A DNA stretch of 28,556 nt. It comes from a virus. The position numbers and the translations under genes are program-made. The DNA lies in IMG/VR virus record IMGVR_UViG_3300030389_003135, positions 1 through 28,556 of that record; one strand, 5' to 3'. Position 1 is the stretch's first letter. The number at the start of each line of letters is the position of its first letter. Below are positions 9,024-26,467 of the stretch, piece by piece. The notes under the pieces were generated by a model. It did not search any database and was not told where the DNA came from. It saw only the letters and a program-made list of their open reading frames with translations.

Positions 9024-10091
9024 ATGGCAAGTACATTTTCAGATAGACTCAAATTAGAACTCATGGCAACTGGTGCGAATGCCAATACATGGGGCACAAA
9101 CACCAATAATAATTTAGAAGTTTTAGATGCCTTTGCGGCAGGATATTTATCAAAATCTGTGGCGGGTTCAGCTAATATTACTTTGACGACAGCTAATGCC
9201 TCTGACACTGCTGAGTCTTCAAATAAAGTTATTGAGCTTACAGGTGCATTAACAGGCGACATAGTTGTATTTATTCCAGCGGTCGAAAGTGAATATTTAT
9301 TTTTTAACAACACAACAGGTTCTCAAACATTAACCATAGCAGCTACAGGTCACACAGCTAATGGTGCTTTGATAACACAAGGTGCATACTCAAGAGTTTA
9401 CTGTGATGGTTCTTCAGATTTTAATGTAGAAGTATCAACATCTTTATTAGGTACTACTAATTTTAAAGCAGATGTAACTGCAGGTGGTGGTAACATTGTT
9501 CTTCGAACAAATGGTGCTGTGTCCGCTACTACTTTTGTAGGTAGTGGCGCAAACCTTACAGGTATTGAGGCTTTTCCTTCAGGAACAAAACAACTTTTTT
9601 ATCAAGCATCTGCACCAACTGGTTGGACACAAGACACAACTGCTGCATTAGGTAACGCTGCCTTAAGAGTTGTTGTTGGTACAGGTGGAGGCACAGGCGG
9701 TGCTGATACTTTTCAAACAGTTTTTTCAGATTCAAAAACTACAGAATCAAAAAGTTTACCCGTTACAGGAAGTTTAAGTGGTACAGTTGGAGCTACAACT
9801 TTGTCAACACCACAAATTCCAAGTCACCAACACAAACCTTCTAAAATGACTTCAGGAGGACAAAACCCCGCACCTACAAGATCTTTCATGCCTCCTGCAT
9901 TTCAGGCAAGAAGAGCTGAACCTGTAAGTCCAGGTTTTTCCGATGAAGCTTTTCCAAACACAGGTGGTGGTGGTTCTCACACTCACCCATTTACAGGTAG
10001 TTTAAGCAGTGCAACTACCGCATCCTCAAGCTTTGCAGTCCCATCAATGGACGTAAAACACGCTAACGTAATCATAGCCGCTAAAGACTAG
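9024..10091 (+). CDS. Tail fibre protein with two HxH motifs
   Basis: This protein has 355 residues. The N-terminal SDRLKLELMATGANANTWGT then NTNNNLEVLD (residues about 6-35) is a typical fibre base that attaches to the tail, followed by a Thr/Ser/Ala/Gly-rich shaft (TLTTANASDT, ELTGALTGDIVVFIP, TTGSQTLTIAATG). The C-terminal part contains LFYQASAPTGWTQ (tail-collar-like) and two HxH motifs, S-H-Q-H (H268, H270) and S-H-T-H (H319, H321). In T4 gp37-type fibre tips, HxH triplets bind iron along a trimeric needle, so iron-bound trimerisation is plausible here. It ends VIIAAKD. It should determine host binding. GAGAGG before the ATG supports the start. Confidence 0.8.
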   Translation: MASTFSDRLKLELMATGANANTWGTNTNNNLEVLDAFAAGYLSKSVAGSANITLTTANASDTAESSNKVIELTGALTGDIVVFIPAVESEYLFFNNTTGSQTLTIAATGHTANGALITQGAYSRVYCDGSSDFNVEVSTSLLGTTNFKADVTAGGGNIVLRTNGAVSATTFVGSGANLTGIEAFPSGTKQLFYQASAPTGWTQDTTAALGNAALRVVVGTGGGTGGADTFQTVFSDSKTTESKSLPVTGSLSGTVGATTLSTPQIPSHQHKPSKMTSGGQNPAPTRSFMPPAFQARRAEPVSPGFSDEAFPNTGGGGSHTHPFTGSLSSATTASSSFAVPSMDVKHANVIIAAKD

Positions 10092-10573
10092 TGCCGATAT
10101 TTGACCCAGATGGGACGTGTCCTCTTCTTAAGAAGAAGTGTATAAAACATCGGTGCATATGGTATAATATGCTACAGGGCAAACACCCTCAAACAGGGTT
10201 AGATGTACAGGAATGGGGTTGTTCTATAGCATGGTTGCCCTTGCTTTTAGTAGAAAATTCAGGAAAAATATCCCAGACAACAGCAGCAACTGAAAGTTTT
10301 AGAAACGAAATGGTTCAATCTAATAATATAATGACAAAAGTTTTAGCACAAAGTGGAGATGCACAAAAAGCCATGGCCACGGCAGGATCTATTTTTGAAT
10401 TAATAGGCGATCATCAAAAAGCAATTGATACTAATGATTCTAACAATGAGGATAAAACTATTTTACAACTAAGCAATAATAAGGTAAAAGTTAAGAAGAA
10501 GCCTAAAAAGGCTATGACTAAAAAGGTGAAAAAAAATGGCAACAACCGTAAACAACACAACAGTTCAAAGTAA
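10091..10573 (+). CDS. Conserved four-cysteine protein following the tail fibre
   Basis: This protein has 160 residues from GTG 10091, whose G is the last base of the preceding TAG (TAGTG). The N-terminal PDGTCPLLKKKCIKHRCIWY, then GKHP-TG, then EWGCSIAWLPLLL (cysteines at about 10, 17, 22 and 44) is a pattern I recognise from marine phages just downstream of fibre genes. Four cysteines could bind an iron-sulfur cluster or zinc. A helical segment follows (AATESFRNEMVQSNN), then an unusual Lys-rich tail (KVKVKKKPKKAMTKKVKK), where the next gene begins in another frame. The function is unknown; a fibre-assembly or redox role would be speculation. Confidence 0.7.
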   Translation: MPIFDPDGTCPLLKKKCIKHRCIWYNMLQGKHPQTGLDVQEWGCSIAWLPLLLVENSGKISQTTAATESFRNEMVQSNNIMTKVLAQSGDAQKAMATAGSIFELIGDHQKAIDTNDSNNEDKTILQLSNNKVKVKKKPKKAMTKKVKKNGNNRKQHNSSK

Positions 10574-10988
10574 AATTACAATACTTTTTGATGCTGATGG
10601 TCCCTTAACAGGTGATGGACCAGCAAAAGGCACTGGAAATACTCAATCAGATGTATATTTAGATGACAATATTCAATTAAATATCAGATCTCATACAGAG
10701 ATTGATTCTAATATTCATGCCTTACAATGGGATGCTACAACAAACACCGGACATATTGAGTTTACAGACACAAGAGACAATGAGTCTATATCCTCATTTC
10801 CTCAGTGGGCTACAAATGTAGTGATTAGAGCTGAAGCTCAAAATACTTGGCAAAGCACTTATGATTCTACATATGAAAGTCATTCAGATGCTGGAGCAGA
10901 AGATGATTCTGCAGCAGTGACAGCCGCAACTACGGCTGCCAACACAGCGAGAACAGATTATCTTGCTGCACACAGTATAACTTACTAA
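10536..10988 (+). CDS. Hypothetical acidic protein, possible fibre-associated
   Basis: This protein has 150 residues. AAGGTGA about six bases before the ATG supports the start, which lies 38 bases inside the previous gene. The N-terminal two thirds are beta-like with DADGPLTGDGPAKG, LDDNIQLNIRSHTEIDSNIHALQWD and TGHIEFTDTRDNESI. The C-terminus is an acidic and Ala-rich helix (SDAGAEDDSAAVTAATTAANTARTDYLA) resembling the C-terminal helix of fibre-assembly chaperone-like proteins. I do not recognise a family. Its position between the fibre module and the oxygenase cassette suggests a fibre accessory role. Confidence 0.65.
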   Translation: MATTVNNTTVQSKITILFDADGPLTGDGPAKGTGNTQSDVYLDDNIQLNIRSHTEIDSNIHALQWDATTNTGHIEFTDTRDNESISSFPQWATNVVIRAEAQNTWQSTYDSTYESHSDAGAEDDSAAVTAATTAANTARTDYLAAHSITY

Positions 10989-11008: not shown

Positions 11009-11557
11009 ATGCGAGAATATATACTAGAAGTAAAAAAATTAATTCCCGAAAAATACTGTAAAAAAATTATTTCTTATTTTGATTATAATTTAATAGATGC
11101 ACAAACAACAGGTTACGGTTTAGCTAAAGATGTAAGAAATTGTAAAAGTAGGAATGTTATGAGCCCAGAAACTTTTGGTGAAAGGATATGCTCTAATTTT
11201 ATTCAAACAAAATTATTAGAATGCGTTGGTTTTTATAAAGAAAAATACTCACATTTCTATTCTAGCAAAATAACATCATGTGAATTACTTAAATATCAAC
11301 ATAATAAATATAAAACAGGATATCAATATCATGTAGATATGGGAACAACGGTTACTAAACGACACGCATCAATATCTATATGCTTAAATAACGATTTTGT
11401 AGGTGGTGAATTTGTATTTGATTTGCCAGAGGGGGAAATACAAATGCCACAAAATGTAGGAGATGCAATAATTTTTCCCTCAAACTTTATGTTTCCACAC
11501 CAAGTAAATCAAATAACTAAAGGCACTAGATATGCCTTAGTGGCATGGATACATTAA
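11009..11557 (+). CDS. 2-oxoglutarate/Fe(II) dioxygenase (prolyl-hydroxylase-like)
   Basis: This protein has 182 residues. The Fe(II) facial triad and 2OG-binding Arg are visible in order: H108-x-D110 (YQYHVDMG), H164 (FPHQV) and R174 (GTRYALVAW), with the H-to-R spacing of ten that is typical of prolyl 4-hydroxylase-type folds. The GGEFVFDLPEGE and P-x-x-G-D-A-I-I-F-P-S segments are the matching beta strands. Such enzymes hydroxylate protein side chains or small molecules while oxidising 2-oxoglutarate to succinate. No ribosome site precedes the ATG. It opens an AT-rich cassette of modifying enzymes. A virion or host protein substrate is inferred only from context. Confidence 0.85.
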   Translation: MREYILEVKKLIPEKYCKKIISYFDYNLIDAQTTGYGLAKDVRNCKSRNVMSPETFGERICSNFIQTKLLECVGFYKEKYSHFYSSKITSCELLKYQHNKYKTGYQYHVDMGTTVTKRHASISICLNNDFVGGEFVFDLPEGEIQMPQNVGDAIIFPSNFMFPHQVNQITKGTRYALVAWIH

Positions 11558-12162
11558 TGAAACCTATTTTTATTAAAGAATTTTTACCTAGAGAAATCTT
11601 AACTGTTGTTCATAGTTATTGTTTGTTGAAATACCAAAATCCTCAATTTTTGAATAATGATTCTCAAACTAACTCTTTCATATCACACCATGGTGATTAT
11701 TTAATGGAATCATTAATGGATTTAAGCACCCCTGTGGTAGAAAAAAATGTACAAAAAAAATTATTTCCGACTTATTCTTTTTTCAGAATTTATGATCGAC
11801 TGTCTGATTTACCAGTGCATACAGATAGACCATCTTGTGAATATACAGTTGCTTTAAGTTTGGGGTCTGACCCTGTTGAAAAGCCTTATGAAATATTTGT
11901 AGGTGAAGCGGACGACACATCTGATTATAAATATTATGATGAATCTAGAAAAAAATTTAACAGATATCGTATCGATTATAAATTTCCTATGGTTCCTAAC
12001 AATGCAATAATTTTTAAAGGCATGGAAAAAATACACTGGAGAGAATATTGTGAGCATGATTATTTTATGACTGTTTTCTTACATTATGTCGATCAAGAGG
12101 GCGATTATAAAGATCATAAATACGATAAGAGAGATCGCATAGGTACTAATTTAAAAGATTAA
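11557..12162 (+). CDS. 2OG-Fe(II) oxygenase-like protein with HTD motif
   Basis: From ATG 11557 (TAATG overlap with the previous stop) the protein has 201 residues; an in-frame ATG at 11545 would add four. H88-x-D90 (LPVHTDRP) followed by CEYTVALSLG matches the first half of the oxygenase core, and H160 (EKIHWRE) fits the distal Fe ligand. The usual 2OG-binding Arg about ten residues after that histidine is not obvious there (sequence DYFMTVFLHY); R162 is close by instead. It may be an altered or differently liganded oxygenase. Length and neighbours fit the family. No ribosome site is visible, so translation is probably coupled to the upstream oxygenase. Confidence 0.7.
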   Translation: MKPIFIKEFLPREILTVVHSYCLLKYQNPQFLNNDSQTNSFISHHGDYLMESLMDLSTPVVEKNVQKKLFPTYSFFRIYDRLSDLPVHTDRPSCEYTVALSLGSDPVEKPYEIFVGEADDTSDYKYYDESRKKFNRYRIDYKFPMVPNNAIIFKGMEKIHWREYCEHDYFMTVFLHYVDQEGDYKDHKYDKRDRIGTNLKD

Positions 12163-12163
12163 T

Positions 12164-12967
12164 GTGAATAAAATTCTTTATAAAATAAGAATTGGCGTAG
12201 GCCTTGGAGATGTGTTTTGTGCATCTGGTGCACTTAAAAAACTTACTGAAAAATTAGACGCTAAAGTTTTTGTTGAAACAGGTCAACCCTCAGTCTTTGA
12301 AGATCAGCCTCATGTAATAAAAGCGTTTAGAGGAGCTTATGATTATTTAGATATTGACATTGAAAATCTTTACAAAAGTTTTGATAAAATTTACGTTGCA
12401 GATTATTATAACGAAAATCACTTAAAGTCTAAAACTAACCTTGTTGAGGCGTATTGTGAATCTATTGATGTAGATAAAACCTCTTTACCTTATTTGTTAG
12501 TGGATAAAGATAAGTTTAATAGTTTTAACTTTATTAATGACAATTATATTTTTGTTGCACTATCTGACAAAATAAAACCCTTTGTTAGTGAAATAGGTTC
12601 ATCAAAACATCTTTCTAACAATTACTGTAAAGATTTGATATACGCCATTCAAAAAAGCTTTCCAAATTATCAAATTGTAGATATTGACAGTTTAAATCCA
12701 AATATACATGACAAAAAAGAATTACTTTACATCGCTATGAAAGCGAAAAGTTTTGTAGCGGTTGATGGTGGAATGGTGCACATAGCGTCTAATCAACCAA
12801 CTTTTAAGAAGGGGGTTTGTTTATACCGTAATCAAGATTGTGTAGATTCTTTTGGGTACAAAGAACAAACTAATTTGATTTCAGACACACCTTTAATTGG
12901 GCCCTACGTATCAATAGAAAAAATTATAAATGAACTTAATAAAATTATAGATCAAAATGTTAACTGA
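12164..12967 (+). CDS. Glycosyltransferase family 9 (heptosyltransferase)-like protein
   Basis: This protein has 267 residues from GTG 12164; the nearby ATG at 12162 is out of frame and closes at once. The N-terminal IRIGVGLGDVFCASGALKKL (residues about 8-27) is the glycine-rich first strand and loop of GT-B heptosyltransferase-like enzymes. The C-terminal FVAVDGGMVHIASNQ (about 196-210) is the D-x-G-x-x-H-x-A donor-sugar motif of family GT9. It is shorter than the usual 320-350 residues, so the acceptor domain is reduced. It would transfer a sugar, possibly to LPS-type glycans or to a modified protein. It sits between oxygenase genes and lacks a ribosome site. Confidence 0.7.
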   Translation: MNKILYKIRIGVGLGDVFCASGALKKLTEKLDAKVFVETGQPSVFEDQPHVIKAFRGAYDYLDIDIENLYKSFDKIYVADYYNENHLKSKTNLVEAYCESIDVDKTSLPYLLVDKDKFNSFNFINDNYIFVALSDKIKPFVSEIGSSKHLSNNYCKDLIYAIQKSFPNYQIVDIDSLNPNIHDKKELLYIAMKAKSFVAVDGGMVHIASNQPTFKKGVCLYRNQDCVDSFGYKEQTNLISDTPLIGPYVSIEKIINELNKIIDQNVN

Positions 12968-13481
12968 AAAAATATTATTTAAAGAGTCTGCCTATCTTAC
13001 TAAATACGAGGGAGATAGAAATATTATAGATAAACATATAGAGCATATTTCACTTTTTGATAAAGGACGTAAAGGAAGTAATGAGGGGGGCTATCAAAGT
13101 CATGATATCACTTTTGGTTTTAATGAATTACTTACTTTTACACAAAAGTGTGCCGTAGAATTAGAACCAAGTTTGATTCTTGCAAATTTTTGGTTGAACG
13201 TAAACAAAGGAAATAATTTCAATTCAGAACACATACATGAATTAAATGGTGCATCTGCGGTTTATTACCATAAGGTTTGCTGTGATAAATGTCCTATTTA
13301 CTTTAAACATTTATGTTCTCAGGTTGTCTTAGGCACACCAAAATTCTATCCCAAAAACGGCGATTTAATATTTTTTCCTGCTTACTTACCTCATGGAGTA
13401 CAAGGGTGTGGTAATCCAGAACATGAAAGAATTTCTTTCGCTTTAAACTTTAAAATAAATAAACAATCTTTAGGGTTATGA
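12957..13481 (+). CDS. Putative 2OG-Fe(II) oxygenase (PF13759-like)
   Basis: This protein has 174 residues. The order FWLNVNKGNNFNSEHIHELNGASAVYY (H92, H94), a PKNGDLIFFPAYLPHGVQG segment (H146) and HERISFALNF (R158) matches the putative 2OG-Fe(II) oxygenase family known as 2OG-FeII_Oxy_5, where an HxH pair precedes a G-x-x-Y-Y strand. A small CCDKCPIYFKHLC cluster (about residues 107-119) adds extra cysteines that could bind metal, unusual for this fold. It overlaps the glycosyltransferase gene by 11 bases and the next gene by four (ATGA), and has no ribosome site. The substrate is unknown. Confidence 0.75.
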   Translation: MLTEKILFKESAYLTKYEGDRNIIDKHIEHISLFDKGRKGSNEGGYQSHDITFGFNELLTFTQKCAVELEPSLILANFWLNVNKGNNFNSEHIHELNGASAVYYHKVCCDKCPIYFKHLCSQVVLGTPKFYPKNGDLIFFPAYLPHGVQGCGNPEHERISFALNFKINKQSLGL

Positions 13482-13966
13482 ATAAAGTAATTCCACAACT
13501 TACCTTTGATTTTATAGAATGGATTGAAGAACAAGAAACAAACGATAAAACCATTGTTGAATTTGGCTCTGGTAATTCAACTTTATATTTTAGTAATAAA
13601 TTTAAAAAGGTTATTACTTATGAAGATGAACCTCAATGGATAGAAATGATTAAGTCTAGGAATATAGAAAACATACATATAAATTTTTTGGACTATAATT
13701 TTTATAAAAAAGAACCAGATACTTTTAAAAACGCTGATTTTATTTTAATTGATAATAACCCTCGTGATAATAATTCACGACTATACGTGGCTCAAGCTTT
13801 AATAGAAAAAATTAATTATCAAAATACGTTGGTGTTAGATAATGGCAATTGGAACGGAGATTGTTATTTTTACTTACGAACAAAATATAATTTTTTCAAT
13901 GATTTTATAGGTATAAACCCAAGAGGAGATAGATCAGTGACTACAGTTTTTTATGGCAGAAAATAA
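13478..13966 (+). CDS. SAM-dependent methyltransferase-like protein
   Basis: This protein has 162 residues. IVEFGSGNSTLYFSNKF (residues about 25-41) is a clear motif I for S-adenosylmethionine binding, followed by KVITYEDEPQWIEMIK with the acidic residue that usually holds the ribose. DFILIDNNPRDNN (about 87-99) corresponds to the post-III strand, and NTLVLDNGNW to a later strand. The fold is class I, most like the small family seen in polysaccharide clusters (Methyltransf_24 or FkbM-like). It is short but seems complete. It would methylate a sugar or protein within the cassette. Overlaps on both sides (4 and 14 bases) show tight packing. GC content is very low here (12 of 60 bases in 13561-13620). 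Confidence 0.7.
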   Translation: MNKVIPQLTFDFIEWIEEQETNDKTIVEFGSGNSTLYFSNKFKKVITYEDEPQWIEMIKSRNIENIHINFLDYNFYKKEPDTFKNADFILIDNNPRDNNSRLYVAQALIEKINYQNTLVLDNGNWNGDCYFYLRTKYNFFNDFIGINPRGDRSVTTVFYGRK

Positions 13967-14528
13967 TTTTTATCAAATACACGAAAGTAAAATTTACAAA
14001 GGTAAACTTGACAATGGGGTTTGCCAACAATCTAAAAAATTTATTGAATCCTTTAAAGATAAATTTACTGAGCACAAGTATGATTGTCCTCTTAAAACAT
14101 CACATAATCTAACAAACAATATTTTAAATATTGTCGAGTTAAGACAATTAAAATTTAATATTTTATCCCACATAGATAATTATATGTTACAAACAAAAAG
14201 GTTTTTTGATGGATATATTTACAATTCATGGATTAACATTTATGAAAAAAATTATTATCAAGAATTTCACAACCATCAACATGAAGTTTACAAATGTATA
14301 AGTGGTGTCGTTTATTTGACAGAAAAAAACTCAAATATTATTTTTGATGCAAATCATGTTAAAAACTTTATACCTGAGTTTTCAGATATAATAATATTTG
14401 AAGATGATATGTTTCACAGAGTTAAGTCTAATGAAGAAGAATTAAGAATAAGTTTGGCTTTTAATTATAGAAAATGTGTCTCATGGCATGGGATAAGAGA
14501 AACAAACAAGGAGAAAACAAATGATTAA
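13953..14528 (+). CDS. Putative 2OG-Fe(II) oxygenase (PF13759-like)
   Basis: This protein has 191 residues. WINIYEKNYYQEFHNHQHE (H106, H108, H110) followed by ISGVVYLTE, then PEFSDIIIFEDDMFHRV (H155), then ELRISLAFNYR (R165), gives the ordered motif set of the 2OG-FeII_Oxy_5 family, with the His-to-Arg spacing of ten. It resembles the 12957 product in its second half more than the HxD-type enzymes at 11009 and 11557. The N-terminal 100 residues are helical and unassigned. It overlaps the methyltransferase gene by 14 bases, and the start has no ribosome site. A hydroxylase is the natural reading; the substrate is not visible. Confidence 0.8.
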   Translation: MAENNFYQIHESKIYKGKLDNGVCQQSKKFIESFKDKFTEHKYDCPLKTSHNLTNNILNIVELRQLKFNILSHIDNYMLQTKRFFDGYIYNSWINIYEKNYYQEFHNHQHEVYKCISGVVYLTEKNSNIIFDANHVKNFIPEFSDIIIFEDDMFHRVKSNEEELRISLAFNYRKCVSWHGIRETNKEKTND

Positions 14529-15321
14529 ACCAGAAGAGTTGAGAGACAAAAATTTTAAAGTATTTTTAGGAATGCCTATGTATGGAGGTTTATTAACAGA
14601 ACCAACTTTACACGGATTATTAGAACTACAATCATGGACCATGAATAATGGCATTAAAATGAGAATACAAACAATGGGTAATGAGAGTTTAATAACTAGA
14701 GCACGTAATACAATTGTGTCGATGATGTTAGATCAAACTGATTTCGCTGCCACACATTTATTATTTATTGATGCAGACATAGGCTTTCATTGGCAGAATA
14801 TTGAAAGACTTCTTTGTGCTGACAAGGATGTAGTTTGTGGAGTCTACCCTAGAAAGCACATACATCTCGAGAAGATAAAAGGTATTTTAGAGGAGCACCC
14901 AGATATTAGTTCTGATGAAATGGAGGCTAGAGCATTAGGCTACAATGTAAATTTTGATAATCCTACTGATCTACGAGGAGAGAACGGATTTTTTAAAGTA
15001 AACGAAGCAGCTACAGGAATGATGTTAGTTAAAAGAGAAGTATTTACAACCATGATGAAAAAGTTTCCTGAGAGAAAATATGAAACCGATCAGATAGTCA
15101 ATGGGCTATATTATAGATCAAATAATTGTTACGACTTATTCGCTGTCGGGCCCTATCAAACAGGAGATCAAAAAAGATATTTATCTGAGGATTATTATTT
15201 TTCAAGACTATGGCAAGAGTGCGGTGGGGAAATATGGGCTGACTTAGCTAGTCCTCTCACTCATTTTGGTAATAGAGCATATAAAGGGCATGTCGGAACC
15301 TTACTTGCTAAAAAAGAGTAA
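14521..15321 (+). CDS. Glycosyltransferase, GT-A fold (GT2/Anp1-like)
   Basis: This protein has 266 residues. FKVFLGMPMYGG opens a Rossmann-type strand, ESLITRARNTIVSMML (about residues 55-71) is the nucleotide-sugar contact region seen in phage enzymes of this kind, LLFIDADIGFHW (about 80-91) holds the D-x-D metal motif, and VVCGVYPRK and EAATGMMLVKREVF follow. The C-terminal LSEDYYFSRLWQECGGEIWADL then LTHFGNRAYKGH fits the acceptor half. It would transfer a sugar from a nucleotide-sugar donor. Unlike the six genes before it, it has a clear ribosome site (AAGGAG, seven bases before the ATG), so it may be expressed more strongly. Confidence 0.8.
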   Translation: MIKPEELRDKNFKVFLGMPMYGGLLTEPTLHGLLELQSWTMNNGIKMRIQTMGNESLITRARNTIVSMMLDQTDFAATHLLFIDADIGFHWQNIERLLCADKDVVCGVYPRKHIHLEKIKGILEEHPDISSDEMEARALGYNVNFDNPTDLRGENGFFKVNEAATGMMLVKREVFTTMMKKFPERKYETDQIVNGLYYRSNNCYDLFAVGPYQTGDQKRYLSEDYYFSRLWQECGGEIWADLASPLTHFGNRAYKGHVGTLLAKKE

Positions 15322-15333
15322 TTTATATATATT
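15305..15333 (+). promoter_or_regulatory. Candidate promoter directly upstream of the tail-hub gene
   Basis: TTGCTA (15305-15310) and TATATT (15328-15333) are separated by 17 bases. The -10-like box ends seven bases before the A of the ATG at 15340, and no ribosome site precedes that ATG, so a transcript starting here would be leaderless or nearly so. The region is AT-rich and the match may be chance. Confidence 0.3.
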
Positions 15334-15339
15334 TAGCTT

Positions 15340-17166
15340 ATGCCCCTAGTAAATTTTAGACCAGCACCAGGTATCAACAAGGAAGTCACTGACTATACAG
15401 GTCAGGGTAAATGGACTGATGGTGACATGGTGCGTTTTTTTCAAGGATCTGCACAGAAAATAAAGGGGTGGGAAAGATTTCTTTCAACAACATTAGTAGG
15501 TGTGGTTAGAGACCAGCATGCTTGGATTGCCCTCGATGGCACAAGATACAACGCATTTGGCACTGATAGAAAGCTCTATGTTTTCGAAGAAGGTAGAGCC
15601 TATGATATTACTCCTATTAGAGAAACACAGGCCTTAACTAATCCATTTACTACTAACGCCACTACATCCGTTGTTGTTACTGATACAGGTCATGGTGCAC
15701 AAAAAGGAGATTTTGTAACTTTCGACTCTTTTTCTGCTATAGACGGATTAGACATGAATAAAGAGTTTGAGGTGACATCTGTAGCAAATACAGACGCCTA
15801 TGTTGTAACTACCACATCGGCTGCATCAGGATCCACATCTGGTGGTGGAGGTTCAGGTAATGCTAAATATCAAATATCTATTGGGCCTGAACTGTCTACT
15901 TCAGCTTTTGGTTGGGGCACAGATACATGGGGTTCAAGCACATGGGGGACTCCATCGACAACCTCTAATGTAACATTAGAAGCTAGACAATGGTCTCTAG
16001 ATAACTTTGGTCAATTACTAATTGCAACTGTGTTAAATGGTGGAGCGTTTGAATGGAGTCCTAGCTCAGGCGTATCCACAAGAGCCACAGCCATTACAAA
16101 CGCACCGACTGCATCTAGATTAAGTTTGGTTTCTACTCCCGACAGACATATATTATTCTTTGGAACAGAAAAAACCATAGGTACATCAGATTCACAAGAT
16201 GATTTATTATTAAGATTCTCAAATCAAGAAGATAGAAATACATATCAACCGACAGCAGAAAATACTGCTGGATCACTTCGTATTGCCGACGGATCACGGA
16301 TTGTGGCTGCAGAAAGATCTAGGGGACAAATATTAGTTTGGACAGATACATCACTACATAGTTTACAATTTATTGGTCCACCTTTTACTTTTGGTTTAAG
16401 ACAGCTAGGTCAAAACTGCGGTATTGTTGGAAGTCATGCAGGTGTTGATATTAATGGTATAAGTTATTGGATGTCACAAGACTCCTTCTTTCTTTTTGAT
16501 GGTTCAGTAAAAAAATTACCATGCACCGTAGAACAATTTATTTTTAATAACATTAATGTAACTGGGGCAGAAAACGCTTTTGCAGGACATAATGGAGAGT
16601 TTAATGAAATCATGTGGTTTTATCCTAGAACAGGATCAGATCAAATAAACGCTATAGTCGCTTACAACTACTTAGAGGGTACATGGTGGACTGGTACTTT
16701 ATCAAGAACGACATGGATTGACAGAGAGGTGTATGATAATCCTATAGCAACAGAGTATAGTCCCACAGCTACCGCTAACAACGAAGTAATAAGTGGATTA
16801 ACTGATGGTGCTTCATCAGTGTTTTTACACGAAACAGGCAACAATGGAGACGGCCAAGCAATAACAGCTTTTGTAAAATCTGGTGTAGTACAAATAGCTC
16901 AAGGGGATGAGTTCGCTTTTGTGTCTAAAATTATACCAGACGTTGAAGATCAAGAGGGTGTTTTAAATGCAAAACTTGAATTTAAAAATTATCCTAACAA
17001 TAGCACAAGTGTGACTAAAACAACTAGTTTTTCAGACACCACGGACTTTGTAAGTCTTCGTGGTAGAGGTAGAGAGTTTACTGTTAATCTTGTCTCTAAT
17101 ACAACAGGAACTGCTTGGAGATTAGGCACTCAAAGATTTGACATACAACCTGATGGTAGAAGATAG
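15340..17166 (+). CDS. Tail hub / stabilisation protein (P22 gp10-like)
   Basis: This protein has 608 residues. The opening PLVNFRPAPGINKEVTDYTGQ then KWTDGDMVRFFQGSAQKIKGWERF (residues about 2-47) is the characteristic start of P22 gp10-like tail proteins, which form the hub below the adaptor and carry the fibres or needle. The later QSRGQILVWTDTSLHSLQFIG-like stretch (about 325-347), GISYWMSQDSFFLFDG and NEIMWFYPR-x-GSDQINAIVAYNY are beta-propeller-type repeats of this family. Residues about 191-202 hold a Trp/Gly patch identical in spacing to one in the 7984 product. The usual gp10 length is near 470, so this version has insertions. It marks the return from enzymes to virion genes. Confidence 0.75.
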   Translation: MPLVNFRPAPGINKEVTDYTGQGKWTDGDMVRFFQGSAQKIKGWERFLSTTLVGVVRDQHAWIALDGTRYNAFGTDRKLYVFEEGRAYDITPIRETQALTNPFTTNATTSVVVTDTGHGAQKGDFVTFDSFSAIDGLDMNKEFEVTSVANTDAYVVTTTSAASGSTSGGGGSGNAKYQISIGPELSTSAFGWGTDTWGSSTWGTPSTTSNVTLEARQWSLDNFGQLLIATVLNGGAFEWSPSSGVSTRATAITNAPTASRLSLVSTPDRHILFFGTEKTIGTSDSQDDLLLRFSNQEDRNTYQPTAENTAGSLRIADGSRIVAAERSRGQILVWTDTSLHSLQFIGPPFTFGLRQLGQNCGIVGSHAGVDINGISYWMSQDSFFLFDGSVKKLPCTVEQFIFNNINVTGAENAFAGHNGEFNEIMWFYPRTGSDQINAIVAYNYLEGTWWTGTLSRTTWIDREVYDNPIATEYSPTATANNEVISGLTDGASSVFLHETGNNGDGQAITAFVKSGVVQIAQGDEFAFVSKIIPDVEDQEGVLNAKLEFKNYPNNSTSVTKTTSFSDTTDFVSLRGRGREFTVNLVSNTTGTAWRLGTQRFDIQPDGRR

Positions 17167-17704
17167 ACTTATACAACAATTAAAAAGTCAAGAGATGTCC
17201 ACAACAGAGGACACTATCTTAGAAAGATTATTAGATAGATATCGTTGGCCTAAACTTTATTCAGGTCAAAACTACCTTCAACCAAGCGTAGAGGCAATAA
17301 AAGAAGATGGCACTAAACATCAAGACTTTTATGATGATGACAATCACTTAAATTCTTTAGATTGCATAAAATGCTATGAGGAGGGTTATTGTTTAATACT
17401 TTCAAACACTGGAGGTTTATGCAAAGACCTTTGGCTCATTCAACAAATTTTAAATCAAAACTATCAAAGACATATAAATTGTAATTTATACTTTGGTAAT
17501 GGTAAAAAATCAGTATCTTTTCCTAAACATAATCATGAATATCCTGTTATTGTTAAAAATATTTATGGCACATCTAAATGGATAATTGATGGAAAAGAAG
17601 TTATTTTAAAAGATCAAGACGTAATTTGGTTTGATAAGGGCATAGATCATCAAGTGGTAGAAATAAGTGATGCAAAATTATCTTTGACATGTAATATCGA
17701 ATAA
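17153..17704 (+). CDS. Cupin/JmjC-like protein, possible 2OG hydroxylase
   Basis: This protein has 183 residues from ATG 17153, which overlaps the tail-hub gene by 14 bases; ATG 17195 is an alternative start. The core CNLYFGNGKKSVSFPKHNHE (H126, H128, E129) followed by YPVIVKNIYGTSKWIIDGKEV and IWFDKGIDHQVVE (H166) is a double-stranded beta-helix metal site. The N-x-Y-x-G....H-x-H/E....G-x-K-W layout fits JmjC/cupin_4-type hydroxylases as well as plain cupins. Such enzymes hydroxylate ribosomal or other proteins. It is the fifth of six Fe- or metal-dependent beta-helix genes in this window. The N-terminal WPKLYSG segment has no assignment. Confidence 0.65.
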   Translation: MVEDRLIQQLKSQEMSTTEDTILERLLDRYRWPKLYSGQNYLQPSVEAIKEDGTKHQDFYDDDNHLNSLDCIKCYEEGYCLILSNTGGLCKDLWLIQQILNQNYQRHINCNLYFGNGKKSVSFPKHNHEYPVIVKNIYGTSKWIIDGKEVILKDQDVIWFDKGIDHQVVEISDAKLSLTCNIE

Positions 17705-17877
17705 TGGCTAAATTAACATTACAAAGATTTCCCGATCCTAGACCTGAGTATGATGCTCAACAGTCTGCTGAGTTGATAAGACAACTAGAAGAACTAGTTC
17801 AACAATTGAATACTCAATACACACAGGACACACAAGAGGAGTCCACTAGAAGGAGTTGGTTTTTTTCTAATGGCTGA
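17704..17877 (+). CDS. Small coiled-coil protein (57 residues)
   Basis: The ATG shares its A with the previous TAA (TAATG), and the stop overlaps the start of the next gene by eight bases. The product opens AKLTLQRFPDPRPEYDAQ and continues with a helix SAELIRQLEELVQQLNTQY, then a polar tail. A short R-F-P-D-P start followed by a Leu-heptad is familiar from tiny genes next to the tail hub in marine phages. It is too short for many gene callers, but coupling on both sides and the absence of any other use of the gap support it. It may be a small virion or assembly protein. Confidence 0.6.
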   Translation: MAKLTLQRFPDPRPEYDAQQSAELIRQLEELVQQLNTQYTQDTQEESTRRSWFFSNG

Positions 17878-18226
17878 TGTATTTAAAAGATTTATAACGA
17901 ATGTTACCACAACAGACTTGACTACAGTGTTTACAGTTCCAACCGCTAACGTGGCTGCAACACCCCCTGTTCCTGTATCAACTTTTATTGTTAAAACAAT
18001 CAATACTCATAACTATGACGGATCTGCAGCAGTGACTGTAAATGTCGATCATAATGATGGTAGTGCAGATTTTCAAATCTTTCAAGTTGATGTAGCGGCT
18101 TCAAACACAAACACCATAAGCACTAGTATGGTTTATCAAGAGGGGGACTCTATGAAAGTTCAAGCCAATGCCGCCTCAAGAGCGATGATAGAGGTTTCAG
18201 TATTAGAGGTAAAACAACAACAATAA
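17870..18226 (+). CDS. Small beta-rich virion-type protein
   Basis: This protein has 118 residues with alternating strands: VFKRFITNVTTTDLTTVFTVPT, STFIVKTINTHNYDGSAAVTVNVDH, DFQIFQVDVAASNTNTIST, SMKVQANAASRAMIEVSVLEVK. The S-T-x-I-V-x-x-I-N-x-H-N pattern and the terminal I-E-V-x-V-x-E-V are typical of small phage beta-sandwich proteins, such as decoration or fibre-base domains. AAGGAG lies 14 bases upstream, rather far, so translation may be coupled to the overlapping 57-residue gene. No enzymatic motif is seen. The position after the tail hub suggests a tail or head accessory protein. Confidence 0.65.
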   Translation: MADVFKRFITNVTTTDLTTVFTVPTANVAATPPVPVSTFIVKTINTHNYDGSAAVTVNVDHNDGSADFQIFQVDVAASNTNTISTSMVYQEGDSMKVQANAASRAMIEVSVLEVKQQQ

Positions 18227-18816
18227 TGTATGTATTAGCTGACGTACCAAAAGAAATATTAGAAATATTAAATAATGTAATAGATGAAAAAGGACTATCG
18301 CCTTTGAATCAAGACCTCGCTGGTAATATCAAACACGAGTATGCTATACCAAAAGGTAAGGCTGCGGTCTCGCCTATGTTGATGCAAATGATAATAAAGC
18401 ATCAAGAAAAATATCCAAATTATTTTAAAAAAGCACACTCCACAATAAACTACAAAGCGTGTGAGATTGAACTGTTTAACCTTTGGGTTAACTTTCAGAA
18501 AAAATATGAGTTTAACCCAATGCATGTACACGACGGGCTATATAGTTTTGTAATTTGGCACAAGGTACCTTACACCATGAAAGATGAAAAAGAGAGATTA
18601 GCTAGCATGATGGATCATGATTTTAGAGCAGGTATGTTTGCTTTCTTTTTTTCTGATCCTAGTGGTAGAATTACGCAAGAGGCCTTGCCTGTTGACAACA
18701 GTTGGGAGGGTAAAGTAGCTTTGTTTCCTGCTAATTTAAATCATTGTGTTTACCCTTTTTATACCTCAGACGAATACAGAATATCTATATCAGGCAACTT
18801 AGGTTTTAAGATATAA
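18226..18816 (+). CDS. 2OG-Fe(II) oxygenase-like protein (HxHD motif)
   Basis: This protein has 196 residues. LWVNFQKKYEFNPMHVHDG (H100, H102, D103) followed by LYSFVIWHKVPY, then VALFPANLNHCVYPFY (H173), then EYRISISGNLGF (R185), gives the ordered oxygenase motifs, with His-to-Arg spacing of 12. I recognise the F-N-P-x-H-x-H-x-G-x-x-S-F-V-x-W variant from T4-like cyanophages and marine phages, where it is common among late genes. It is separated from the main cassette by the tail hub and has a TAATG-coupled start. The substrate is unknown. It would act in the cytoplasm during late infection. Confidence 0.8.
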   Translation: MYVLADVPKEILEILNNVIDEKGLSPLNQDLAGNIKHEYAIPKGKAAVSPMLMQMIIKHQEKYPNYFKKAHSTINYKACEIELFNLWVNFQKKYEFNPMHVHDGLYSFVIWHKVPYTMKDEKERLASMMDHDFRAGMFAFFFSDPSGRITQEALPVDNSWEGKVALFPANLNHCVYPFYTSDEYRISISGNLGFKI

Positions 18817-22141: not shown

Positions 22142-25100
22142 ATGGCTGAGTTAGATTTTTCAGGCATCTTACCAGAGGATAAAGATAAGAAAGATTCTTT
22201 AGACTTTTCAGGTATTGTAGAAGACGAAAAAGAGAAAGAAGAAGACAAAGGATTTTTTAAATCTATTGGTGATGCATCTCTCAGTGGAGGCGCAGGTTTA
22301 GTGTCTGGTGTTATAAAAATACCAGAAGGATTTGTGTCCTTAGGTGCAGAGTTAATTGATTTAGGATTTGATACTCAAACTGCAGATGCAGTTGAAGATT
22401 TTTTTGACAAGATGAATCCTTTCGAGGAGGTCGCTGAGAAAACTTTAACAGGTAAGATTGTAGAGGGACTAACTCAATTTGGTGTGCCTAGTGTTGCAGG
22501 TTACAAGATAGGAGCTAAAGTAGCACAAAAGGTTTTAGCTAGTAGAACAAAAGGAAAACATATTTCATTAAAAAAAGTAAAGTCTTTATCTAGTAAAAAA
22601 AGACAAGAGGCCTTTTTAAAAAGAAAACAAACTAGAAGAGAAAAGTTTTTAATTGGTAGTTCTGGTTTAGCAGGTGCAACTGTGGGTGAAACTGCAGCAT
22701 ATCAACAAGACTTAGATACATTATCAGGTGATTTCATAGAAGAACTTACAGGTAGTTCTGCACTAAGAACAGACAAAGAAGCACGAGAACCTGGAAGATC
22801 AGATGCCACTAGAAGAATTTTAAACAGAGCAAAGTTTGGTATAGAAGCAGGACTTTTGGGAGGAGCCTTGACAGGTATCTTTACGGGGGTCGCCACCGCC
22901 GCTAGATCAGGGGGTAAAGCTGCTTTTAGTGCCGACCCTATTGAAAGAGTATTTGGTAAGATTGCCAATCAGTTCACACCAAACGGACCCGTTAGCAAAA
23001 GATTTTTTGCCGAACAAAGGTCTGCCATAGATTCTATTGAAGCATTTAGAGACATTGCAACCGATACCTCTCTAATACTACAAAACACCGCTGAGGATAT
23101 CGCCAAAAGTTTAAAAGGTAGTGGTGTCATGAGAAGGTTGAATGGTCCCAAATATGAACAATTAAAAAAACTCATCGGTGATAAGTTAGAGAGTTATGGG
23201 GCTAAATCAGACTTTGATAAGGCATCTAACACTTTTGCTTACACATTAAAAACAGACAAACAAAAAGCTGCAGATACAGCACTTAATAAGTTTTTAAAGG
23301 ATAATAAAATAAAAAAAGATTTAGTGGAAAGATTAGATAAAGATTTATATGTGGCTAGAAACCAAATAGATGTGTTTTCGGATAAAATAGCAGAGCTTGC
23401 TAAAAAAAGAATAGCAGAAGCGGATAGAACATTGTCGGGTAATCCAAGCACTAAGGCTAAAGATGACGCAACAAAAGCAAAGAAAGAAGCGGAAAGATTA
23501 TTAAAAGCGACTCAAGCAAACTATGGCTCTTATCTAACAAAGCAATATCAGTTGGTTCAAAACAAACCTGGTGGAGCATTGGCTAATGGTTTGTCAAAGT
23601 ATGAACCAGGAGAGGATGCCATACTACAGGCAGAAAATTTCTTTGTTGATAAATTATTAAAAGTTAGAGCTAAAAAACTATCAAATACTAAAGATTTAAA
23701 ATCCCCGCTATTAGAACAATTACAAGCAGGTAAAATAACAAATAAACAGTATGACGAACTTTTAAAGAAAAATGCAAACGACTTGGCCAACAATCCTAAA
23801 AGTTTAAATGATATTAGAGATCAAGCCTCTGATATTGTTAATTATATTATTAATCAAGCAGGACGAAATGTGGAAGGCGTTGCAACTGTTGATAAAAATT
23901 TAGCCAAAGAATTAAGCAAAGAGGGATTAGATTTAAGTGAAAATATTTTAAAGAGTAGAAAACTTCCGCCCGAACTACGAGCGTTATATGGTGAGATAAC
24001 TGATCCTTTTTTTAATGTAGCAAATACGTTATCAAAACAAGCAGAGTTTATAGCTAAGTACGATTCTTTTGAAAATTTATTGAGAGCCAACAAAAATACA
24101 AAAGGACAAAACACAGTATTTTTTGATAAAAGTGAATTAACAGCTATAGGAAAAAGATTAGGCATAGACCCTCAAAAAAGATTGGTTGAAATTAAAACTA
24201 GTGGTCCTTTAAAAACTCCATTAGACGGTAAGTTTACATTTAAAGAAGTGGCAGATTCTCTTAATGATCAAGGGTTGGCTTTACAAGATAATTGGTACAA
24301 CAACCTTTACAAGTATATGATTTTGTATCCTAAAAGTTTTTCTAACCAAGCCAAGACAATCTTCTCTCCTTTCACGCATGTGCGTAACTTTGTGTCTGCT
24401 GCTATGTTTACAACAATGAATGGTAATATTTTATTTCAAAACCCTGCACAAACAGGAAGATTGTTTAAGGAGGCTTTTTTAGATTTATACAATCCCTCCT
24501 CAGCGGCAGCGGTTAAGAGAAAAATAGATAGAACAAGATTAGGAGTTAGAGGCACGAGTGTTACAGGAATTGAAACTGCAAGACTCGCTAGAGAAACAGG
24601 GACTGATTTAACTAATAAAAACTATTCAGGATTTTTAGGAAAAACCATAGGCTCCATGGTAAATAAAGTAGGTAAAAAATTTAGAGATGCATATATGTGG
24701 GAGGATAATGTTTGGAAAGGTTATAACTTCGAAGCAGAAAGAAGTTCTTTCAGAAAAAATTTAGAGGGACTTAAATTTACTCCTGCAAAATTACGAGATC
24801 CTAAATTTGTTGCAGACATGGAAAAACTTGTTGGTAGAAAAATAGGAACTCCAAGAGCAGATGGCACTATCGACATTCTTGATGATCCTTTATTTAGAAA
24901 AAATGTTTACAAAAGAGATGGTCAAAATGCATATAGAGATTTAGGTCTATCTAAATCAGTCCCTGAAAACGAATTAACAGATACTTTTATTGATAACATG
25001 GCAGCAGAGATAACTAAAAATCAAATACCCAACTACGAGTATGTGGGACAGTTTATTAAAAATTTAAGAAGACTACCCCTTGGCACATTTGTTGCTTTCC

Positions 25101-26467
25101 CTGCTGAGATAATTAGAACAGGATTCAACACGATTCAAAGAGGGGCAAGAGAGGCCACAACCGCAGGATTTAGAGGAACAGGATTAAGAAGATTAGCAGG
25201 TACATTGACCACCGCTACTGTCGTGCCCGCAGGATTAGTTGAATTAGGCAATCAACTTTATCAAGCAACAGAGGATGAGATGACTGCTCTTCGTCGTATT
25301 GTTCCCTCTTGGTCAGAGAATGGTTTATTGATGGCAACAGGCAGAGATAAAAACGGACAACTAGAATACGCTGATTTAAGTTATATCTTTCCATACGATC
25401 AACTAATTCGTCCTGTCACCACTATGTTTAATGAGGTGGCAAAAGGAGAAGCCACAGAAGAGTCAATTAATAAATCTTTATTTGATGCAGGTGTAAAATC
25501 TATGGCAGAACTAGCGGCACCTTTCGTTTCTGAATCTATTTTTGCGGAGGCTTTTATAGACTTAACTGTAAGAAGAGGGAGAGATCCTGGTGGTAGGCCC
25601 GTATGGAATCCAGAGGATCCTGTCGGTGAAAAACTTTTTAAAGGAACCATGCACATTCTTGATCCTTTTATACCTGGTTCGTACAAAGCAGGAACTAGAA
25701 TAGCTCAAGCAAAAAGAAATAAAGCAGATAAAAGAGGAAGAACATTTGATTTAAAGGATGAGGGTTATGGTATATTTGGGTTTAGACAACAAAAATCTGA
25801 CCCAGACAGAGCGGCTCCTTTTATATTTACTGAATTTAAAGATTTAAAAGGTAAGGCTCAAAGAACCTTTACAACGGATGTACTAAGAGGTGGAGAGATT
25901 ACCGCAGGAGAAATAATAGAACAATACATAGGATCAGAACTTAGAAGATTTGAAATTTATAAAAACTTTTATCAAGATGTTGAGGCTTTAAAAACTTTAA
26001 ATATAAATAAAGCGGAGTTGGCAGCACAATATGAAAGAATAACAAAGACAGATAGAGGCTTTTTGGAGTCAGGTAAATATATACCTCAAGTCCCCACTAG
26101 AGGAACGATAGAAAAGTTTATTCAAAACTACATGAAATTAGAGGAAAACTTAGGAAGAAAAGTTGATCCCACAATAATAGATGCTCTTCCATATATAACT
26201 GAATTTATACGAAAAAACGCAGGTGTAGGTATAAATGAAAATTTAGACATAGAATTAAATCTCCCTCAATCATTATTCAATCAAGAACCACAACCTAGTG
26301 AACTTGACTTTAGTGGAATATTACCATCCCCCAACACTAGCACAGGAACCACTATCACCGGACAAGGGCAAAAACCTACAACAAACCTTGATCAGACGAC
26401 AAAGAAAGCTATTATAACTGACATGGATACAACTGAAGCAATAGCGGAAAGACAAGGGACTATCTAA
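22142..26467 (+). CDS. Giant internal virion (ejection) protein, 1441 residues
   Basis: This is the largest gene in the window and occupies the place of T7 gp16-like ejection proteins. Residues 4-10 and 20-26 carry LDFSGI motifs, and another (ELDFSGILPSP) lies near residue 1388. Gly/Ala hydrophobic patches occur near residues 48-72 (SLSGGAGLVSGVIKI), 170-190 (FLIGSSGLAGATVGE) and 233-255 (GIEAGLLGGALTGIFTGVATA). Long helical middle sections follow, then NPAQTGRLFKEAFLDLYNPS and YMWEDNVWKGYNFEAERSSF (about 852-871), which I know from large marine podovirus internal proteins. I see no transglycosylase or polymerase catalytic motif. It probably crosses the envelope with the DNA. Start weakly supported (GAGAACGCC). 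Confidence 0.7.
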   Translation: MAELDFSGILPEDKDKKDSLDFSGIVEDEKEKEEDKGFFKSIGDASLSGGAGLVSGVIKIPEGFVSLGAELIDLGFDTQTADAVEDFFDKMNPFEEVAEKTLTGKIVEGLTQFGVPSVAGYKIGAKVAQKVLASRTKGKHISLKKVKSLSSKKRQEAFLKRKQTRREKFLIGSSGLAGATVGETAAYQQDLDTLSGDFIEELTGSSALRTDKEAREPGRSDATRRILNRAKFGIEAGLLGGALTGIFTGVATAARSGGKAAFSADPIERVFGKIANQFTPNGPVSKRFFAEQRSAIDSIEAFRDIATDTSLILQNTAEDIAKSLKGSGVMRRLNGPKYEQLKKLIGDKLESYGAKSDFDKASNTFAYTLKTDKQKAADTALNKFLKDNKIKKDLVERLDKDLYVARNQIDVFSDKIAELAKKRIAEADRTLSGNPSTKAKDDATKAKKEAERLLKATQANYGSYLTKQYQLVQNKPGGALANGLSKYEPGEDAILQAENFFVDKLLKVRAKKLSNTKDLKSPLLEQLQAGKITNKQYDELLKKNANDLANNPKSLNDIRDQASDIVNYIINQAGRNVEGVATVDKNLAKELSKEGLDLSENILKSRKLPPELRALYGEITDPFFNVANTLSKQAEFIAKYDSFENLLRANKNTKGQNTVFFDKSELTAIGKRLGIDPQKRLVEIKTSGPLKTPLDGKFTFKEVADSLNDQGLALQDNWYNNLYKYMILYPKSFSNQAKTIFSPFTHVRNFVSAAMFTTMNGNILFQNPAQTGRLFKEAFLDLYNPSSAAAVKRKIDRTRLGVRGTSVTGIETARLARETGTDLTNKNYSGFLGKTIGSMVNKVGKKFRDAYMWEDNVWKGYNFEAERSSFRKNLEGLKFTPAKLRDPKFVADMEKLVGRKIGTPRADGTIDILDDPLFRKNVYKRDGQNAYRDLGLSKSVPENELTDTFIDNMAAEITKNQIPNYEYVGQFIKNLRRLPLGTFVAFPAEIIRTGFNTIQRGAREATTAGFRGTGLRRLAGTLTTATVVPAGLVELGNQLYQATEDEMTALRRIVPSWSENGLLMATGRDKNGQLEYADLSYIFPYDQLIRPVTTMFNEVAKGEATEESINKSLFDAGVKSMAELAAPFVSESIFAEAFIDLTVRRGRDPGGRPVWNPEDPVGEKLFKGTMHILDPFIPGSYKAGTRIAQAKRNKADKRGRTFDLKDEGYGIFGFRQQKSDPDRAAPFIFTEFKDLKGKAQRTFTTDVLRGGEITAGEIIEQYIGSELRRFEIYKNFYQDVEALKTLNINKAELAAQYERITKTDRGFLESGKYIPQVPTRGTIEKFIQNYMKLEENLGRKVDPTIIDALPYITEFIRKNAGVGINENLDIELNLPQSLFNQEPQPSELDFSGILPSPNTSTGTTITGQGQKPTTNLDQTTKKAIITDMDTTEAIAERQGTI

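Follow-up and report, generated by a model that had tools for sequence, protein, structure and literature searches.

Why a marine phage should keep a run of oxygenase genes inside its tail-gene block, and what these enzymes act on, is the question raised by IMG/VR virus record IMGVR_UViG_3300030389_003135, of which we analyzed a stretch of 28,556 nt (28.6 kb; hereafter, the window). A preliminary description of this DNA had listed five 2-oxoglutarate (2OG)-Fe(II) oxygenase-like genes, a cupin/JmjC-like gene, and glycosyltransferase and methyltransferase genes, and had combined them into one pathway. We found that two of the oxygenase genes, OX1 and OX2, are inherited together with the fibre-tip genes just upstream of them, a link suggesting that the fibre used for host binding is chemically modified by the phage itself. 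All of the genes named earlier were recovered in place within the tail genes, with one correction: the second oxygenase gene, OX2, starts at 11545 and not at 11557.

Linkage of OX1-OX2 to the fibre tip

The window covers part of the genome of a phage akin to the HTVC023P-type pelagiphages. Its capsid protein shares 72% identity with that of Pelagibacter phage HTVC023P, and its tail-region genes are common to the HTVC023P group; the assignment as pelagiphage-type thus refers to capsid and structural-protein kinship and does not extend to the host itself. The genes at the center of the analysis are as follows.

9024-10091, + strand: fib20, tail fibre-like protein with the tip module behind it (phrog_12796, tail fiber protein, E-value 3.8e-6); position conserved in relatives
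10091-10573, + strand: s21, small protein of the 'S' tip module that contains Cys; always found with s22 before OX1 in S-type loci
10536-10988, + strand: s22, final protein of the 'S' tip module, encoded immediately before OX1; precedes OX1-OX2 in 34 of 34 S-type loci
11009-11557, + strand: OX1, 2OG-Fe(II) oxygenase resembling prolyl 4-hydroxylase (P4H) and PKHD-type enzymes (PF13640, E-value 2.6e-12)
11545-12162, + strand: OX2, 2OG-Fe(II) oxygenase fold by AlphaFold and Foldseek (phrog_2954, labelled 'ferrochelatase'); overlaps OX1 by 13 bases
15340-17166, + strand: STAB, virion structural/stabilisation protein (phrog_3287, E-value 1.9e-82)

Using STAB as an anchor, we collected 80 relatives by tblastn, and 38 loci spanning the whole skeleton, window included, were treated as comparable. 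In this survey, one phage group was sampled deeply and others lightly, the loci were partly fragments, gene calls in relatives were mechanical and the trees were quick ones. The skeleton runs fib19, fib20, tip module, OX1, OX2, variable genes, GTA (a putative glycosyltransferase gene), STAB, variable genes, s32, OX5 or variable genes, and s34. Four types of tip occur: s21/s22 (type S, as in the window), c7, c17-c13 and c25. The c7 protein is a tail assembly chaperone (PF16778, E-value 6.1e-12) and c17 is a Gly-rich protein (PF21722, E-value 4.1e-13), while s21 and s22 matched no family in profile scans. A c25-type protein of 138 residues (survey locus L193:5540-5956) resembles, by eye, a longer tail assembly chaperone, so that truncation of a chaperone may account for the short c25 proteins.

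OX2 was located between the fibre and STAB in 50 out of 51 loci, with OX1-OX2 directly behind the tip/chaperone module. The gene immediately upstream of the pair was fixed for each tip type: s22 in every S-type locus, c7 in 14/14, c13 in 6/6 and c25 in 3/3. Downstream of the pair, S-type loci carried any one of eight kinds of gene. With few exceptions, the two oxygenase genes overlap or are almost contiguous, and in 13 loci (3 + 10), comprising c25-type and some other loci, they are fused into a single protein of ~365-430 residues with OX2 first.

When the tip type was placed on the OX2 tree, 3 changes were required, which is the minimum possible and a perfect match. For the same 35 loci, the corresponding numbers were 9 for GTA, 7 for STAB and 10 for fib19; the last of these lies only about two genes from the tip, on its other side, and yet is not co-inherited with it. 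The c17-c13-OX1-OX2 block of HTVC023P and 023Pt_psg01 precedes fib19/fib20 instead of following them, which indicates that the pair moves with the tip.

The arrangement also recurs in unrelated marine podoviruses and T4-like phages. HTVC033P has the order c17-c13-c17-OX1-oxygenase-OX2, and the T4-like phages HTVC008M, Mosig and ACG-2014b carry OX1 and OX2 near fibre genes. A second set comprised 100 further non-redundant OX2 loci, 89 of them testable. Among these, OX1 was in the same gene run as OX2, or fused to it, in 77, and a recognised tip gene touched the oxygenase run in 55, compared with 36 expected from shuffled gene order.

Fold of the pair and the 'ferrochelatase' label

OX1 carries the full canonical set of ligands, H108xD110...H164...R174, all invariant in 24 aligned homologues, and together with the profile match this places it among the 2OG-Fe(II) oxygenases. 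A profile search of the PDB with OX1 retrieved the PKHD-type enzyme PiuC and prolyl 3- and 4-hydroxylases, with E-values down to 2.4e-8. OX2 matched no oxygenase family in Pfam. However, its AlphaFold model, built from 35 homologues, had a predicted local distance difference test (pLDDT) score of 92.8, and a Foldseek comparison with the PDB gave 451 matches at E ≤ 0.001, the best being prolyl-4-hydroxylase 4j25 (E-value 1.1e-7). The best 50 of these 451 were nearly all 2OG-Fe(II) oxygenases, and no ferrochelatase was among the matches listed. The ligands H92xD94...H164 are invariant in 37 homologues, and the wider pattern HxDR...HWR is also invariant in the versions of T4-like cyanophages and pelagimyophages; OX2 combines the double-stranded beta-helix with an HxD...H motif. 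Direct profile comparison of OX1 and OX2 revealed partial similarity only. PiuC and the prolyl 3-/4-hydroxylases are accordingly sequence relatives of OX1 and share the fold of OX2; they differ in that OX2 lacks the usual basic 2OG-binding residue and that a substrate for OX1/OX2 is only proposed.

A ferrochelatase function for OX2 was considered and rejected on the basis of the Foldseek result and the lack of a PF00762 (ferrochelatase) match. This profile was absent from all eight phage records searched, including HTVC023P, and positive in 8 of 14 genomes used as a control, so that OX2 and ferrochelatase share a database label and differ in fold and profile. By matched profile positions, the OX2-OX1 fusion proteins correspond to phrog_3531, likewise labelled 'ferrochelatase'. 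The label is wrong for the phrog_2954 family, and both phrog_2954 and phrog_3531 are oxygenases. This corrects a name that has entered published statements on iron/heme metabolism and seasonality (PMC9599517, PMC11561400). Separately, three families named 'DNA endonuclease (V)' or 'minor coat protein' (phrog_274, phrog_2297 and phrog_1644) also seem to cover 2OG-oxygenase-like proteins, judged from PF13640 or DUF6445 matches and HxD...H...R patterns (examples: L069:13690-14181, L058:12358-13026 and syn9 gp51-gp53 in L091). Such endonuclease or coat labels stand inside the oxygenase runs of syn9 and other cyanophages.

Variable cargo and comparison with known clusters

Further along the window, the following genes occupy the variable slots and the GTA position.

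12164-12967, + strand: GT9-like gene, variable cargo, weak assignment (PF01075, E-value 0.052)
12957-13481, + strand: OX3, oxygenase with HxH...H...R (PF13759, E-value 1.8e-10, 41.5 bits)
13478-13966, + strand: methyltransferase-like gene, variable cargo, weak assignment (motif EFGSGNST, resembling an S-adenosylmethionine-binding motif)
13953-14528, + strand: OX4, oxygenase with HxH...H...R (PF13759, E-value 1.6e-8, 35.3 bits)
14521-15321, + strand: GTA, putative GT-A (glycosyltransferase fold A) glycosyltransferase (PHROG glycosyltransferase family phrog_34859, E-value 2.6e-8)
17153-17704, + strand: cupin-family gene, variable cargo (Cupin_2, PF07883, E-value 1e-6, 28.8 bits against a cut-off of 27.2)
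18226-18816, + strand: OX5, oxygenase with HxH...H...R (PF13759, E-value 5.6e-9, 36.7 bits)

OX3, OX4 and OX5 all exceed the curated PF13759 cut-off of 27 bits. The five oxygenases proposed earlier are therefore upheld, four by PF13640 or PF13759 and the fifth, OX2, by its predicted fold; the ordered metal ligands and Arg that had been noticed in four of the five are also correct, OX2 being the one without the Arg. In alignments, OX3-OX5 do not have the canonical acidic ligand (HxD/E) and carry an invariant HxH instead; the ligands of OX5, H100xH102...H173...R185, are conserved across homologues. A direct profile comparison of OX1 with OX5 gave nothing of note, and PDB profile searches with OX5 and with the cupin gave no credible match. 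As for the gene at 17153, its cupin identity stands, whereas the JmjC half of the earlier name does not (JmjC_2, E-value 0.0025, 17.8 bits, below the cut-off of 22).

For the glycosyltransferase and methyltransferase genes, the assignments are no more than suggestive. The GT9-like gene fell below its family cut-off (13.3 bits against 22), and a family profile of 11 sequences performed no better. The methyltransferase-like gene had only sub-threshold matches (best family, 14.1 bits against 24), with no improvement from family profiles. The earlier naming of these two genes was not borne out at these cut-offs. For GTA, the call is favored by phrog_34859 and by a D84xD86 (DxD) motif that is invariant among homologues; a PDB profile match, A197, had an E-value of 0.027, and the AlphaFold model was too poor for a fold check (pLDDT 63.5, at which a Foldseek result is meaningless).

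GTA is present in nearly all relatives and is located elsewhere in HTVC023P. Of the 38 comparable loci, 11 carry the GT9-like gene, 10 the cupin and 8 the methyltransferase-like gene. The same slots in relatives also hold a sulfotransferase, tryptophan halogenase, sugar epimerases, a TOD1/MUCI70-like glycosyltransferase and DUF6065. OX3-OX5, the cupin, the GT9-like gene and the methyltransferase-like gene are swapped independently of the tip. G+C content falls from 38-45% at 8-11 kb to 28-30% at 11-15 kb and is 40% immediately after that, as would be expected for acquired cargo. The pathway of the preliminary description, in which the products hydroxylate, glycosylate and methylate in sequence, is thus unsupported: GTA, the GT9-like gene and the methyltransferase-like gene do not share the inheritance of the oxygenase-tip unit, as seen in the 12 changes of tip type on GTA's own tree versus 3 on the OX2 tree, and in the low frequencies of the other two.

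Three side observations concern these slots and the rest of the window. A sulfotransferase gene (PF13469, E-value 6.9e-11; L073:8398-9159) fills the STAB-s32 slot in five relatives. Tryptophan-halogenase genes lie in or beside the fibre-linked island of pelagiphage-like contigs (L075:13105-14595; also L143, L137, L168 and L220), and likewise in HTVC008M, syn9 and S-RIM44 (L088, L091 and L093). Finally, a 1441-residue protein encoded at 22142-26467 of the window, with no PHROG match at an E-value of 0.01, stands where DSL-LC04 has its DNA-transfer protein.

Taken as a whole, the cluster is not a product of chance, since most of the ten non-structural genes in a row belong to this type, and dozens of relatives retain them with intact ligands. 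In those relatives, it is a recurrent cluster and not a set of scattered single genes. The oxygenase cluster is also typical for this phage group: comparable loci carry 3-8 oxygenase-family genes, mostly 4 or 5, and the window carries 5 plus the cupin. We therefore rejected unusual oxygenase density as a feature of the locus, and with it the suggestion that density marks an undescribed system. Co-located 2OG-Fe(II) oxygenases in HTVC023P-type pelagiphages were reported in 2022 (PMC9599517), with several non-orthologous oxygenases close together and a 'ferrochelatase' partner beside one. Whereas that report assigns the partner to iron metabolism as a ferrochelatase, we find an oxygenase fold for it and a link between the pair and the fibre tip; these two points are what the present analysis adds. 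T4-like cyanophages and pelagimyoviruses (syn9 gp45-gp54, HTVC008M and Mosig) similarly contain 4-9 oxygenase-like genes per run, an OX2 homologue included, the run of syn9 being consecutive and about nine genes long; these runs adjoin tail-fibre genes or tryptophan halogenase. They differ in morphology and backbone, and the literature ascribes them to 2OG/nitrogen status or DNA repair.

Possible targets of the pair

We propose that OX1 and OX2 form a two-enzyme unit, made together from overlapping genes and as a fused protein in some relatives. The unit would act ahead of virion assembly, presumably with 2OG as cofactor, and would oxidise, most likely hydroxylate, residues in the tip of the tail fibre or in the small tip/chaperone protein whose gene lies just upstream. 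Each tip type would have its own matched OX1-OX2 lineage, the block being exchanged as a unit, and a benefit for binding or host range may follow. The slots nearby would hold exchangeable extras (OX3-OX5, the cupin and the GT9-like and methyltransferase-like products), which probably tailor the same structure further or act on glycans of the host surface. We assign this reading, that the pair modifies the fibre tip or its chaperone-like neighbour and that the other cargo consists of interchangeable tailoring enzymes, a probability of roughly 0.47. Of the virion or host proteins that had been named earlier as substrates, the tip linkage favors a virion substrate over a host metabolite.

Several observations weigh against this proposal. 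In the alignment of 37 homologues, OX2 has no Arg or Lys ~10 residues past the distal His, the usual 2OG-binding position, so that its use of the cofactor is something we infer; the invariant R81, R95 and R166 could be substitutes. Linkage alone can yield co-inheritance of adjacent genes and could contribute here, though the nearby fib19 is not co-inherited. Two of the groups on the OX2 tree, which was built by a quick method, have support values of 67 and 72. C7-type loci have a constant downstream gene (c3) as well, locus L050 carries a c17-c13 tip without OX2, and in cyanophage S-P4 an OX2 homologue stands alone among replication genes. Tip adjacency in the second set is clear but not absolute, many upstream genes being unnameable; several of the loci scored negative hold a Gly-rich protein without a name and a small protein at the place of the tip.

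The principle behind the earlier pathway, protein hydroxylation followed by glycosylation, is that of the procollagen lysyl hydroxylase/glycosyltransferase (PDB 6ax6). However, OX1 matched this enzyme only weakly (E-value 0.017), the oxygenases and the glycosyltransferase studied here are not inherited together, and no window protein contains a collagen-like Gly-X-Y stretch, Gly-rich tips occurring in relatives of another tip type and not in the window. A limited search found no literature on hydroxylation of tail fibres by phage oxygenases, an absence which that search does not prove.

The linkage to the tip would also arise if OX1-OX2 had a protein or envelope component of the host as their target, since the tip determines the host and both would have to suit it; virion modification would then be unnecessary, and a bacterial P4H in complex with EF-Tu (PDB 4iw3) is indeed among the fold matches of OX2. 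This explanation is unlikely, in that the fixed neighbour of the pair is the tip or chaperone gene itself, and GTA, another gene of the block for which matching to the host might be expected, does not follow the tip in its inheritance. Less likely still is that glycosyltransferases, epimerases, sulfotransferases and oxygenases jointly edit the host envelope, remodelling surface glycans or lipids, for example in superinfection exclusion. The near-universal GTA and the presence of epimerases, sulfotransferase and the TOD1/MUCI70-like glycosyltransferase in the same interval of relatives are consistent with such editing, but it does not predict an OX2 lineage that tracks tip type, the fusions or the tip adjacency. 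Least probable is a metabolic role, in which the oxygenases shift host 2OG/nitrogen or iron/heme status or repair DNA, as published proposals hold (2OG levels, NtcA and DNA repair, PMC3037559; an oxygenase-ferrochelatase partnership, PMC9599517), since the 'ferrochelatase' folds as a 2OG-Fe(II) oxygenase without a PF00762 match, and a simple 2OG sink needs no array of non-orthologous oxygenases beside fibre genes.

Among the 'auxiliary' genes of marine phages, those for 2OG oxygenases are widespread, and the linkage of OX1-OX2 to the tip offers a concrete target for them, namely the fibre-tip proteins of the cultured phages HTVC023P and HTVC033P. On a broader and more tentative view, which we consider somewhat less likely than not, unrelated marine phage lineages may carry a tip-matched oxygenase pair that hydroxylates the receptor-binding tip or its chaperone, together with tailoring enzymes (oxygenases, halogenases, sulfotransferases and glycosyltransferases) in interchangeable slots, amounting to a chemical diversification of the host-binding protein. 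If this is the case, these phages would vary host binding by chemistry, beyond sequence alone.

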